A DNA stretch of 34,063 nt, from positions 1 to 34,063 of the forward strand of contig NZ_JAUXNK010000080.1 in assembly GCF_030682845.1 (NCBI RefSeq). Direction: 5' to 3'. The notes under the pieces were generated by a model. The model did not search any database and was not told the DNA's origin. It was given only the letters and a program-made list of their open reading frames with translations. Of this stretch, positions 30,847 to 34,063 are shown piece after piece. This DNA is from Methanolobus sp. Its GTDB lineage: Archaea; Halobacteriota; Methanosarcinia; Methanosarcinales; Methanosarcinaceae. Position 1 is the first letter of the stretch, and each line of letters starts with the position of its first letter. The position numbers and the translations under genes are program-made.

Positions 30847-31521
30847 ATGGATACTATTTATGCTGCAGTCGTAGGCATTCTTATCGCCATATTCATCTTT
30901 GGGCTAAAGACAGGAGTAGGGTGTGGGTTTTCGAGTATACGGAAACGAGATGTGCTCATCCTGGCTACAGGTTACTTTGTTATATCTGTTATTCTTGGAA
31001 GTCTTGTAGGATTGGTGGATGAGTCGTATCTGGAAGGAATAGCAGGTCTTGGCATGACCCTGCACGTCCTTATCGCGCTCATTCTTATCGCTGTTGGGAT
31101 ATACACCCAGAAAAAGTGGATCTGCGGACATGATGTCTCAAAAAAGACCTTCCTCGTTATCTCCGTGCCATGTCCTGTGTGCCTGACAGCACTTTTCGTG
31201 TCCTGCATGCTCCTGGCGTCAAGCCTTGAGATAAGCGGATGGAAGGTCGGTGTCATAGTAGGCATCGTTTTCTTCCTGTCAGTGGTATCATCCACATGGG
31301 TTTTCAGGAGCATGAAAAAATCCCCTGAAGACCTTGGGACCGCAATGATGTTCCTTGGGATATTCTACCTGATGGGAGCCATGATAGTTCCCGCCTATAT
31401 CAAGGCAAAACAGTTGAATATTTCAACTATCGAGGGCGGAGGCCTGGATATCGTTCCGCTGGTAGTGATATCATTATTCATACTTGGCGGATTTGCTTTT
31501 AATCATATGAGAGGTCAATAA
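30847..31521 (+). CDS. DUF2162-type predicted transporter (polytopic membrane protein)
   Basis: A 224-aa protein with about seven membrane helices. The start MDTIYAAVVGILIAIFIFGL leads to TGVGCGFSSI and a central VPCPVCLTALFVSC at about 107-120. A CPxC motif at the membrane is uncommon and could bind metal or undergo thiol exchange. I place it in DUF2162, a predicted archaeal transporter family that I recall beside MotA/TolQ/ExbB and DUF2149 genes. GGTGA precedes the ATG. The ExbB-like gene starts 2 nt after its stop. The substrate is unknown; metal or corrinoid handling is conjecture. Confidence 0.72.
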   Translation: MDTIYAAVVGILIAIFIFGLKTGVGCGFSSIRKRDVLILATGYFVISVILGSLVGLVDESYLEGIAGLGMTLHVLIALILIAVGIYTQKKWICGHDVSKKTFLVISVPCPVCLTALFVSCMLLASSLEISGWKVGVIVGIVFFLSVVSSTWVFRSMKKSPEDLGTAMMFLGIFYLMGAMIVPAYIKAKQLNISTIEGGGLDIVPLVVISLFILGGFAFNHMRGQ

Positions 31522-31523
31522 AA

Positions 31524-32147
31524 ATGGATACAACGTCTTCATTGTTCGGTATTTTGTACACTTTCTCAGCTTCACTGCTGTACCCTGTAATAATAATCCT
31601 GCTGGGAATGGTAGTCCACTCCCTTATCCTCATCGGAGAGTTCCTTTCGGAATATGCAAGGCGTCATCGTGATGTGAAGAACCTGCAGGACTGTTGCCAA
31701 GATATAAAAGAACATATGGATAAGGCTGCTTTTGGGAAAGCTGCAGTTTCCCTGCGTAACATCAAACAGAACTTCATGGTCACGGGTTTTGCGAAAGCTG
31801 CTGCGGAACATCTTGAAAAGAGCACTGTTGCTTCTATAGAATGGCTTTCCCAAGAATATGAGATAATGATGGCAAAGAGGCTTGAGCAGACAAGGATCGT
31901 CGCGACGATTGCTCCGATGCTCGGCCTGATGGGAACACTGATACCGCTGGGACCCGCACTTATAGGGCTTTCCCAAGGCAATATCGAACAACTTGCAAAC
32001 AACCTAATGATAGCATTTGCAACAACGGTTGTGGGACTTTTCGCAGGCACCATTGCCTATGTGCTCACTCAGGTGAGGAAGAGATGGTACTGGCAGGATA
32101 TGGCTGACATCGATTATATCCTGGATACTCTGGAGATGCAGGAATGA
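31524..32147 (+). CDS. MotA/TolQ/ExbB-family proton channel protein
   Basis: A 207-aa membrane protein with three membrane helices: about 14-38, 123-148 (VATIAPMLGLMGTLIPLGPAL) and 157-180. A long cytoplasmic loop lies between the first two. TIAPMLGLMGTLIPLGPALIGLSQGN followed by LANNLMIAFATTVVGLFAGTIAY is the ExbB/TolQ/MotA proton-channel signature. In bacteria these form a pentamer with ExbD-type dimers in the pore and turn proton flow into mechanical work. ATGA overlap with the DUF2149 start indicates coupled translation. Confidence 0.88.
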   Translation: MDTTSSLFGILYTFSASLLYPVIIILLGMVVHSLILIGEFLSEYARRHRDVKNLQDCCQDIKEHMDKAAFGKAAVSLRNIKQNFMVTGFAKAAAEHLEKSTVASIEWLSQEYEIMMAKRLEQTRIVATIAPMLGLMGTLIPLGPALIGLSQGNIEQLANNLMIAFATTVVGLFAGTIAYVLTQVRKRWYWQDMADIDYILDTLEMQE

Positions 32148-32503
32148 GAAGGCGAAGATACAGACGAACAGGGCTCATCACCAACGAGGATGAACAGAAC
32201 CCCCTTACAGGGGTTGCCAATCTCTTCGATATTGCAATGGTATTCTCAGTGGCACTCCTGGTAGCACTGGTAATGTCCTACAACATTCCGGAATTGTTAA
32301 CCGACGAGGACATAACCATCGTGAAGAACCCCGGACAGAAAGACATGCAGATCATCATGAAGGAGCAGGGTAAGCCCATTGAGATAATGAACATGACAGA
32401 CCAGATCGGAGGAGGAACCGGAGAAGCTCTTGGTACAGCTTACAAACTGGCTGACGGAAGAGTGGTGTATGTGCCGGAGGAGGGAAACGTAACTTCAACA
32501 TAA
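32144..32503 (+). CDS. DUF2149 protein with ExbD/TolR-like architecture
   Basis: A 119-aa protein. An Arg-rich cytoplasmic start (MRRRRYRRTG) is followed by one membrane helix (NLFDIAMVFSVALLVALVMSY, about 26-46) and an external domain of about 70 residues. This layout, and Asp29 at the beginning of the helix (LFDIAMVF), is the same as in ExbD/TolR/MotB, where that Asp carries protons. I place it in DUF2149. The gene overlaps the ExbB-like gene by 4 nt. A T8 run after the stop (32504-32511) may end transcription. The ExbD analogy is inference from architecture and context. Confidence 0.78.
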   Translation: MRRRRYRRTGLITNEDEQNPLTGVANLFDIAMVFSVALLVALVMSYNIPELLTDEDITIVKNPGQKDMQIIMKEQGKPIEIMNMTDQIGGGTGEALGTAYKLADGRVVYVPEEGNVTST

Positions 32504-32511
32504 TTTTTTTT
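32504..32511 (+). terminator. Oligo-T stretch after DUF2149
   Basis: Eight T residues follow the stop codon directly, without a hairpin, as at many archaeal RNA 3' ends. Confidence 0.35.
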
Positions 32512-32551
32512 GCTTATTGGGACAAGTTAGGTTGTTTTAACACAATTATAA

Positions 32552-32560
32552 TTTATAAAA
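32552..32560 (+). promoter_or_regulatory. Putative TATA box of the repeat-protein gene
   Basis: TTTATAAAA would start transcription near 32583, giving a leader of about 77 nt that includes both hairpins at 32598-32652. Confidence 0.5.
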
Positions 32561-32597
32561 AAGATTTGTGAATAATAAGAATAGAAAACGCGTGAAA

Positions 32598-32656
32598 GCA
32601 TTTCGGTACCGCCTGCAAGCAAAGTGACCGAAATGCCCGGCACGCTATCGGGTGAT
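32598..32656 (+). promoter_or_regulatory. Structured mRNA leader with possible ribosome-site sequestration
   Basis: GCATTTCGGT (32598-32607) pairs exactly with ACCGAAATGC (32627-32636) over a 19-nt loop. A second small stem pairs CCCG (32636-32639) with CGGG (32649-32652), and its right arm covers the start of the ribosome site GGTGAT (32651-32656). C32636 belongs to both stems, so they compete. No known riboswitch consensus is recognised. Confidence 0.5.
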
Positions 32657-32659
32657 AAC

Positions 32660-34063
32660 ATGCAAGTAAAAAGTATAGCGGTATTACTATTAAGCGTATT
32701 GTTGCTGGCATCGCTGGCAACACCTGTATCGGCAGATGAACTGAAGTTTGTTGCCAATGCAACCAGTGATGAGAACGGGGAATTTATTCTCACAGACATT
32801 CCTAATGGAAATTATACACTCTCAGGAATAATATGGAGCACTGCAATGAGCGGCATGTGGCTCACAAACGTCCAGGAGATCACGATCGAGAACGGACAGC
32901 CTGTTGAGGATATCGTCATGGAGATGAGAAAGAACGACAGCATAGACCATGATGCAATACTGAGCATGCTGCACAGGACCACGATATCCGGAACCACGGT
33001 TGACAAGAACAAGGCTATCAAGCCTGAAACGAATCTTATTCTTACTGACAAGGATGGGAAATTCATCCTCAACGCCACTAGCGATGTCAACGGACAGTTC
33101 GTCCTGGAAAACATAATGAACGGAGAGTACACACTATCCGGGATAATCTGGAGCACTGCAATGAGCAGCATGTGGCTCACAAACGTCCAGGAAATAACAG
33201 TCGAGAATGGGCAGCCTGTAGAGAATATCGTCATGGAGATGAGAAAGAACGACAGCATAGATCATAATGCAATATTGAACATGCTGCACAGGACCACGAT
33301 ATCCGGAAACACGGTTGACAAGAATAAGGCTATCAAGCCTGAAACTAAGCTTATTCTTACTGATAAGGATGGAGAATTCGTCCTCAACGCCACCAGCGAT
33401 GCCAACGGAGAGTTCGTCCTGGAAAACATAATGAACGGAGAGTACACACTATCCGGGATGATCTGGAGCACTGCAATGAGTGGCATGTGGCTCACAAATG
33501 TGCAGGAAATAACAGTTGAGAATGGGCAGCCTGTAGAGAATATCGTCATGGAGATGAGAAAGAACGACAGCATAGACCATGATGCAATACTGAGCATGCT
33601 GGACAGAACCACCATATCTGGGAAAACAGTAGATAAGAACGAGAACAACAGGCCGGGAGTGCAGCTTGTGCTCACTAAGAAGATAGAAGAAACTGCAGCT
33701 CCAGAGCCTGATAAACCTATTGTATCGACGTATGAATATGAATTTATTCTCAGTGCAACAAGCGATGAGAACGGGGAGTTCGTTCTCACAGAGATCCCTA
33801 ACGGAGAGTACACGCTCTCAGGAATAATATGGAGTACGGCAATGAGCGGCATGTGGCTCACAAATGTACAGGAGATCACAGTTGAGGATGGACAGCCGGT
33901 AGAGAATATTGTCATGGAGATGAGAAAGAACGACAGCATTGACCATGATGCAATACTGAACATGCTGGACAGGACTACGATCTCCGGAACTACAGTTGAT
34001 AAGAATGGAGGCATCAAACCAGGAACCCAGCTTCTTCTTACCAATGAAGAAGGTCAATTTGTC
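32660..34063 (+). CDS. Secreted tandem-repeat protein (carboxypeptidase-regulatory/Ig-like repeats), 3' end outside window
   Basis: An open frame of 468 codons running off the right edge. ATG at 32660 is preceded by GGTGAT. Residues 1-25 (MQVKSIAVLLLSVLLLASLA then TPVSA) form a signal peptide. Then follow four repeats of about 105 residues, each with NATSDENGEFVL, NGEYTLSG, TAMSGMWLTNVQEIT, ENGQPVENIVMEMRKNDSID and LHRTTISGTTVDK. The strands resemble carboxypeptidase-regulatory-like beta-sandwich modules. It should be outside the cell membrane; no anchor is visible in this part. It follows the ExbB/DUF2149 genes but has its own promoter. The partner or ligand is unknown. Confidence 0.85.
   Translation, partial: MQVKSIAVLLLSVLLLASLATPVSADELKFVANATSDENGEFILTDIPNGNYTLSGIIWSTAMSGMWLTNVQEITIENGQPVEDIVMEMRKNDSIDHDAILSMLHRTTISGTTVDKNKAIKPETNLILTDKDGKFILNATSDVNGQFVLENIMNGEYTLSGIIWSTAMSSMWLTNVQEITVENGQPVENIVMEMRKNDSIDHNAILNMLHRTTISGNTVDKNKAIKPETKLILTDKDGEFVLNATSDANGEFVLENIMNGEYTLSGMIWSTAMSGMWLTNVQEITVENGQPVENIVMEMRKNDSIDHDAILSMLDRTTISGKTVDKNENNRPGVQLVLTKKIEETAAPEPDKPIVSTYEYEFILSATSDENGEFVLTEIPNGEYTLSGIIWSTAMSGMWLTNVQEITVEDGQPVENIVMEMRKNDSIDHDAILNMLDRTTISGTTVDKNGGIKPGTQLLLTNEEGQFV
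32756..34063 (+). repeat. Tandem in-frame coding repeats of 315, 315, 366 and more than 312 nt
   Basis: Units begin at equivalent Asn/Ser-Ala/Thr codons at 32756, 33071, 33386 and 33752. Spacing is 315, 315 and 366 nt; the third unit has 17 extra codons rich in Glu and Pro (KIEETAAPEPDKP). Runs of 40-58 nt are identical between units 2 and 3, which shows recent duplication or gene conversion. A fifth unit should begin just past the window. Confidence 0.9.

Follow-up and report, generated by a model that had tools for sequence, protein, structure and literature searches.

The closest described relatives of the locus reported here are the hmuYRSTUV loci of Bacteroidota, in which HmuS strips iron from heme; this de-chelation requires NADH and a membrane fraction, not ATP, and recombinant HmuS without its helices halts after one or two turnovers (PMC12583661). 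HmuU and HmuV have been assigned to TonB-driven outer-membrane uptake (PMC12583661, PMC10100974), and HmuTUV is presumed to move heme across the inner membrane in P. gingivalis (PMC13227078). The role of archaeal HmuS/CobN homologues has been called unclear, their species being said to have no complete hmu operons (PMC12583661, 2025). We examined a 34,063-nucleotide (nt) stretch of Methanolobus sp. (NZ_JAUXNK010000080.1, the window), which is the whole of contig C35 in a genome of 2.87 Mb that is 99.8% complete. Four plus-strand genes close the window: T, U, V, and an open reading frame (ORF) still open at the window end. Together with the CobN-like gene that this ORF begins, they are the archaeal counterpart of the HmuS-HmuT-HmuU-HmuV/BtuS loci of Bacteroidota.

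Gene layout and the interrupted chelatase gene

Each of the four products matches Pfam far above cut-off: T to DUF2162 (E 7e-67), U to MotA_ExbB (E 6e-13), V to DUF2149 (E 5e-34) and the fourth ORF to CarboxypepD_reg repeats. A gap of 2 nt separates T from U, the last 4 nt of U are shared with V (ATGA at 32144), and the repeat ORF follows V after 156 nt; T-U-V is a tight operon. The initial annotation had described a DUF2162 protein, an ExbB-like protein and a small Arg-rich single-helix protein with an Asp in one coupled operon, and the Pfam matches, spacing and predicted helix bear it out. The features, with the evidence for each, are as follows; signal peptides and helices were assigned by a simple hydropathy rule.

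30847..31521, plus strand: T, DUF2162 polytopic membrane protein, 224 aa, about 7 helices (Pfam, alignment, model)
31524..32147, plus strand: U, MotA/TolQ/ExbB family proton-channel subunit, 207 aa (Pfam, PDB profile match, genome search)
32144..32503, plus strand: V, DUF2149, ExbD-like single-helix partner, 119 aa (Pfam, alignments, low-confidence model)
32228..32230, plus strand: codon of V Asp29 (alignments)
32660..34063, plus strand: N-terminal part of an exported CobN-like (BtuS/HmuS-type) chelatase, with signal peptide MQVKSIAVLLLSVLLLASLATPVSA and repeats, the gene being cut by the contig end (ORF and relatives)
32725..34020, plus strand: four 300-nt repeats, CarboxypepD_reg-type beta domains N-terminal of the CobN domain (Pfam, repeat analysis)

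For the repeat ORF the ATG at 32660 was taken as the start, where the mechanical ORF call begins at GTG 32624. The initial annotation took this ORF for a separate secreted beta-repeat protein and proposed that a cobN-like gene might lie beyond the window. The repeats and predicted signal peptide stand, but the ORF is not a gene of its own; it encodes the N-terminal half of a CobN-like chelatase that is predicted to be exported and anchored at its C terminus, so that the 5' part of the anticipated gene was already inside the window. Two congeneric genomes have the gene intact: after T-U-V comes a protein of 1741 aa (L039) or 1523 aa (L040), in the order signal peptide, repeats, CobN, C-terminal helix. 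We rejected a separate secreted protein because relatives carry whole CobN genes at this place. In the window's own genome, which by profile search holds one DUF2149, one MotA_ExbB and two CobN-like genes, contig C17 opens with both CobN-like genes. The first starts mid-frame with GIKPGTQLVLMKKVK, the motif that closes a repeat, and encodes a CobN domain (PF02514, 1067 bits), then a C-terminal hydrophobic helix and basic tail. Export and membrane anchoring of the CobN fold are thus predicted from the signal peptide in the window and the helix on C17, and from both together in L039 and L040. The join of C35 to C17 is inferred from relatives, because the two contigs have just 24 bp of repeat in common; probably at least one repeat unit is missing between them. 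Members of the genus differ in the number of repeats ahead of the CobN domain, with protein lengths from about 1520 to 2620 aa, and this variation is a likely cause of the contig break. NCBI annotates such proteins as 'cobaltochelatase subunit CobN'. Downstream of chelatase genes there is also a large surface protease of the subtilisin-like (S8) type, which bears repeats as well as a C-terminal helix (L006:9794-13975; L039:11885-19998).

The CobN part of a close relative has HmuS as its best PDB match (E 3e-142), and hmuYRSTUV (HmuS, PDB 9d26) shares with the archaeal locus an anchored extracytoplasmic CobN-like enzyme, a polytopic protein, an ExbB homologue and DUF2149. Loci of B. finegoldii and Prevotella read HmuY-TonB receptor-CobN-T-U-V, whereas the archaeal loci have no flanking HmuY or outer-membrane receptor, and the genome has no receptor. 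The archaeal chelatase also differs from HmuS in bearing repeats in front and in the replacement of His1209/Glu1212 (below), and the archaeal T is a DUF2162 protein whose homology to HmuT is not clear: we rejected HmuT as a clear DUF2162 member, given 13-16% identity, no Pfam hit and only a weak profile match (probability 61). BtuS, the CobN-like protein of B. fragilis and Methanosarcina barkeri, belongs to the same class, and in M. barkeri copies of this type increase with FeS2 or cysteine as the Fe/S source (PMC6460266, PMC10846266). The BtuS literature describes the rest of the operon as lacking in M. barkeri, but T-U-V adjoin in the sampled Methanosarcinaceae. The use of the module that the initial annotation thought would be new is not wholly unknown: the machine matches these bacterial loci.

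U is the sole PF01618 member of the genome (49.2 bits against a curated cut-off of 22.9) and finds TolQ (E 2e-5) and ExbB (E 0.004) among PDB profiles; the Thr residues in its GTLIP and FATTVVGL motifs align with channel-lining Thr of TolQ/ExbB. By its sequence, U is a true member of the ExbB/TolQ kin. The N terminus of V is rich in Arg, and the protein has a single predicted helix, residues 20-46, near whose start Asp29 lies; this residue is Asp in 60/60 relatives from both domains of life (Glu in Runella in a smaller alignment). The pair resembles ExbB-ExbD-TonB and TolQ-TolR-TolA in the conserved Thr motifs of U and in the single helix with an acidic residue, encoded beside an ExbB homologue, in V. 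It differs in that the archaeal host has no outer membrane and V lies outside the ExbD family by profile: PF02472 matched nothing in the genome, and V matched DUF2149 alone. Against PDB profiles V gave nothing below E 0.25, and its structure model (predicted local distance difference test, pLDDT, 61) gave no fold match. No TonB-dependent receptor was found in the genome or encoded in the operon, no search being aimed at TonB/TolA themselves. The initial annotation was right to see an ExbB/ExbD-like pair in an archaeon that, by these searches, has neither TonB-dependent receptor nor ExbD.

T has invariant residues in 42 aligned relatives: K21, C26, H73, D96 and P-C-P-x-C at 108-112. Its structure model (pLDDT 81) found no convincing match in a fold search, the best being VIA Z 7.4 to MFS half-domains, with ZIP transporters at 6.8. 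As to NicO/HupE-type metal permeases, the DUF2162 profile has a weak match to a NicO-like gene (22.5 bits; hhalign probability 32). We found no mention of DUF2162 in open-licence literature, where DUF2149 is mentioned. One DUF2162 protein (L058) has a TPR-like N-terminal extension.

Linkage of U and V to exported chelatases

An alignment of 11 DUF2149 sequences, run against 84,980 species genomes, retrieved 80 loci, which belong to Archaea, Bacteroidota, Planctomycetota and Pseudomonadota. These were pooled with 20 loci obtained before the scan, and 44 of the DUF2149 genes are flanked by 7 kb or more on each side. U adjoins V in all 44; CobN lies within 10 kb in 37/44 and is adjacent on the same strand in 34/44, where by our own estimate (about two CobN genes per 2.9 Mb) chance would give some 1-2%. 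The gene order varies (T-U-V-CobN, CobN-T-U-V, U-V-CobN, CobN-U-V), and therefore the linkage has been upheld through rearrangement; in archaea T is almost always directly upstream of U. DUF2149 is present in 98/150 genomes of the order, with intact T-U-V-CobN operons across it, and in 85/296 genomes sampled from the phylum. Within the window's family, CobN occurs in all 35 sampled genomes that have V and in none of the 4 (four genera) that do not. Conservation of Asp29 and of gene linkage, both raised as checks by the initial annotation, is thus found.

The large subunit family PF02514 is common to this locus and the class I chelatases CobN-CobS-CobT and ChlH-ChlI-ChlD. CobN and ChlH are driven by AAA+ ATPases (CobS-CobT, ChlI-ChlD). 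Those enzymes are cytosolic, whereas the archaeal operon encodes an exported one and has ExbB/DUF2149 genes instead. We compared the partners of both forms in 40 regions of one archaeal phylum, hand-picked from its CobN matches to span short and long frames, with an 8 kb neighbourhood and with ChlI/D counted as AAA plus VWA domains verified in Pfam. CobN proteins without a C-terminal helix have U/V nearby in 0/31 cases and ChlI/D in 20/31; for those with the helix the counts are 9/11 and 0/11. Among V-selected loci, ChlI/D lies within 8 kb of UV-linked CobN in 0/73. A coordinate test, with frame length as proxy and a distance of 15 kb, found V near 0/84 CobN frames under 1400 aa and 38/65 longer ones. 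Frames of at least 1500 aa without a nearby V number 19; for 18 of them the genome carries V at another place, and the remaining one lacks the helix. In eleven genomes with a completeness of 98% or more, V and CobN are present and ChlI/D matches do not rise above background (G004, G009, G014, G041, G045, G081, G085, G087, G091, G093, G103). In a tree of 78 CobN proteins the UV-linked forms stand apart from the ChlI/D-linked ones (branch support 100); UV-linked CobN is thus one old lineage.

The window's genome has a separate ChlI and ChlD-like gene pair (G000:C58:63307-65604; L194:7196-9682), and pairs of this type occur also in genomes without any CobN hit (G001, G005, G107). We rejected this pair as serving the exported CobN: the pair works in the cytosol and the chelatase domain lies outside, and those CobN-less genomes have the pair too.

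The same distribution bears on the published Bacteroidota view, by which HmuU/HmuV would be an ExbB/ExbD pair powering an outer-membrane receptor via TonB, with the archaeal copies as repurposed relics. That assignment is in print, as cited above, and U is a true ExbB/TolQ relative. Yet operon-bearing archaea have no outer-membrane receptor or ExbD by genome search, and U/V track the exported chelatase in both domains of life. The Trichlorobacter lovleyi plasmid cluster (Glov_3667-3675 region) likewise carries DUF2162-ExbB-DUF2149-CobN, near cobamide genes; it differs from the archaeal loci in a TonB receptor upstream and a canonical ExbB-ExbD-TonB plus a second receptor directly after. A role of U/V as TonB energiser would be odd there, because the same cluster has a second energiser. 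We consider this explanation very improbable.

In a few loci U/V keep other company. U-V without T or CobN directly follows a surface-protein gene in L046:15303-19091 (minus strand), L088:5829-10336 and L076:1822-6264; the upstream gene encodes an S-layer protein (PF07752) with a C-terminal helix in L046 and L088, and L076 has a similar arrangement that was not domain-scanned. In L088 a small CARDB membrane protein lies in between and a DUF1538 gene comes after. T-U-V or U-V is also found near beta-helix/NosD-like, CARDB/PQQ and PKD surface proteins (L058:715-6109, L056:1-5445, L045:1-6146). U/V may have other surface clients. These loci would fit a general motor for C-terminally anchored archaeal surface proteins (S-layer, beta-helix, chelatases), serving for example S-layer reshaping or transport, with the chelatase as its commonest client; against this, CobN is near 37/44 fully flanked loci and the other contexts are few and lineage-limited, and we hold it improbable.

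The putative motor and its client

We lean slightly towards a proton-driven ExbB/DUF2149 motor that energises the exported class I chelatase, replacing the ATP motor. T-U-V-CobN would then be a machine that handles metal-tetrapyrroles on the outer side of the cytoplasmic membrane. U (presumably five copies) and V (presumably two) would form the proton-driven motor, with V Asp29 as proton carrier, and would mechanically push the anchored chelatase through its cycle. Their energy would stand in for that of CobS-CobT or ChlI-ChlD, AAA+ ATPases that are unable to act outside the cell. Removal of the metal from a metallo-tetrapyrrole or a like chelate would be the task of the chelatase (insertion being less likely), and T, with conserved Cys, His and Asp in its helices, would pass the freed metal (Co, Ni or Fe) into the cell. 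T, U, V and CobN may also belong to a single complex.

In the main rival reading, T is the protein that U/V energise. T-U-V would then use the proton gradient to bring metal or tetrapyrrole through the cytoplasmic membrane, and the CobN-like protein would serve it outside as a capture or release factor. This resembles the inner-membrane HmuTUV complex proposed for P. gingivalis (PMC13227078) and agrees with the near-constant position of T directly upstream of U in archaea. Prevotellaceae, moreover, have beside V and CobN what appears to be a fusion of an HmuT-like N terminus with HmuU, some 350 aa long and with 6-9 predicted helices (L122:8965-10014, L132:8669-9718, L133:8959-10014). But the T slot switches family (DUF2162, HmuT, NicO/DsbD-like in Runella) while U-V-CobN stays, and it seems empty, with U-V-CobN kept, in Azospirillum (CobN-U-V near a nikR gene), L125, L143 and L149. 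We favour the chelatase as client of U/V, since U-V-CobN persists in several bacterial loci where T is of another kind or missing. We also know of no ExbB-type motor that drives a permease, and regard the importer as unlikely, though a more serious candidate than the surface-protein motor or the TonB energiser.

Several points weigh against a chelatase motor: (i) gene content, predicted export, linkage and conservation are shown, but proton coupling, contact between U/V and CobN, the substrate and the direction of the reaction are inferred. (ii) The reaction does not strictly depend on a proton gradient, since NADH alone lets recombinant HmuS carry out some chemistry, and heme is converted in lysates by membrane fractions of B. 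theta (PMC12583661). (iii) The Prevotellaceae fusions point to T as the direct partner of U. (iv) UV-linked CobN is one clade, and therefore the linkage counts are not independent events. (v) Two exported CobN genes of one genome (L187) have no nearby UV, V being elsewhere in that genome. (vi) In a few loci CobN is missing and the neighbours of U/V are other surface proteins (S-layer, beta-helix, CARDB).

Candidate substrates and biological meaning

The essential His538 of HmuS (H-G motif) is retained as MGRHGTVEW in L039, L040 and the C17 protein. In almost all archaeal exported proteins His1209/Glu1212 (LSLDHxxE) are replaced by Asp/Gln (LDxDDFYQ; LDTDDFYQY or LDIDDFYQY). Bacteroidota retain LSLDHxxE, and Trichlorobacter, which shares the active-site variant LDNDDFFQYLGG, shows the same replacement, as does Runella. 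Heme is disfavoured because the second axial His1209 is lost, as in these cobamide- and nickel-linked bacterial relatives; from the residues, the archaeal substrate is probably not heme, and possibly a cobalt or nickel tetrapyrrole. On the Runella plasmid (L068:752-15010) U-V-CobN lies within a [NiFe]-hydrogenase maturation cluster (hypABFCDE), suggesting nickel as its metal; the NicO/DsbD-like protein is in the T slot.

In Methanomicrobiales and relatives (L102, L108, L124, L184, L185) the exported CobN has no HG motif (FSIFSS... in place of HFGTHG) and U and V still adjoin; such proteins are possibly non-catalytic or altered chelatases. Extra T-U-V copies in two congeneric loci (L043:5208-15226; L045:6147-7620) adjoin a DtxR-type iron repressor gene and flavodoxin, with a FecCD-type importer in one, hinting at iron or metal-starvation control.

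Archaeal HmuS/CobN homologues do come with the ExbB/DUF2149/DUF2162 set, and this set goes with the exported chelatase whether or not an outer membrane is present. More tentatively, as a proposal we would not yet put at even, class I chelatases may come in two power versions, one cytosolic with ATP and AAA+ proteins, the other exported with a proton-driven ExbB/DUF2149 rotary-type motor. On that view the HmuU/HmuV of gut Bacteroides would drive HmuS (or HmuT) rather than TonB, and methanogens would run the same machine to obtain Co, Ni or Fe from tetrapyrroles in their environment. If U/V do power the chelatase, this would be a new job for 5:2-type ion motors and would reassign HmuU/HmuV in gut and oral Bacteroidota, contradicting the published TonB-import view; it would also account for a class I chelatase working outside the cell without ATP.

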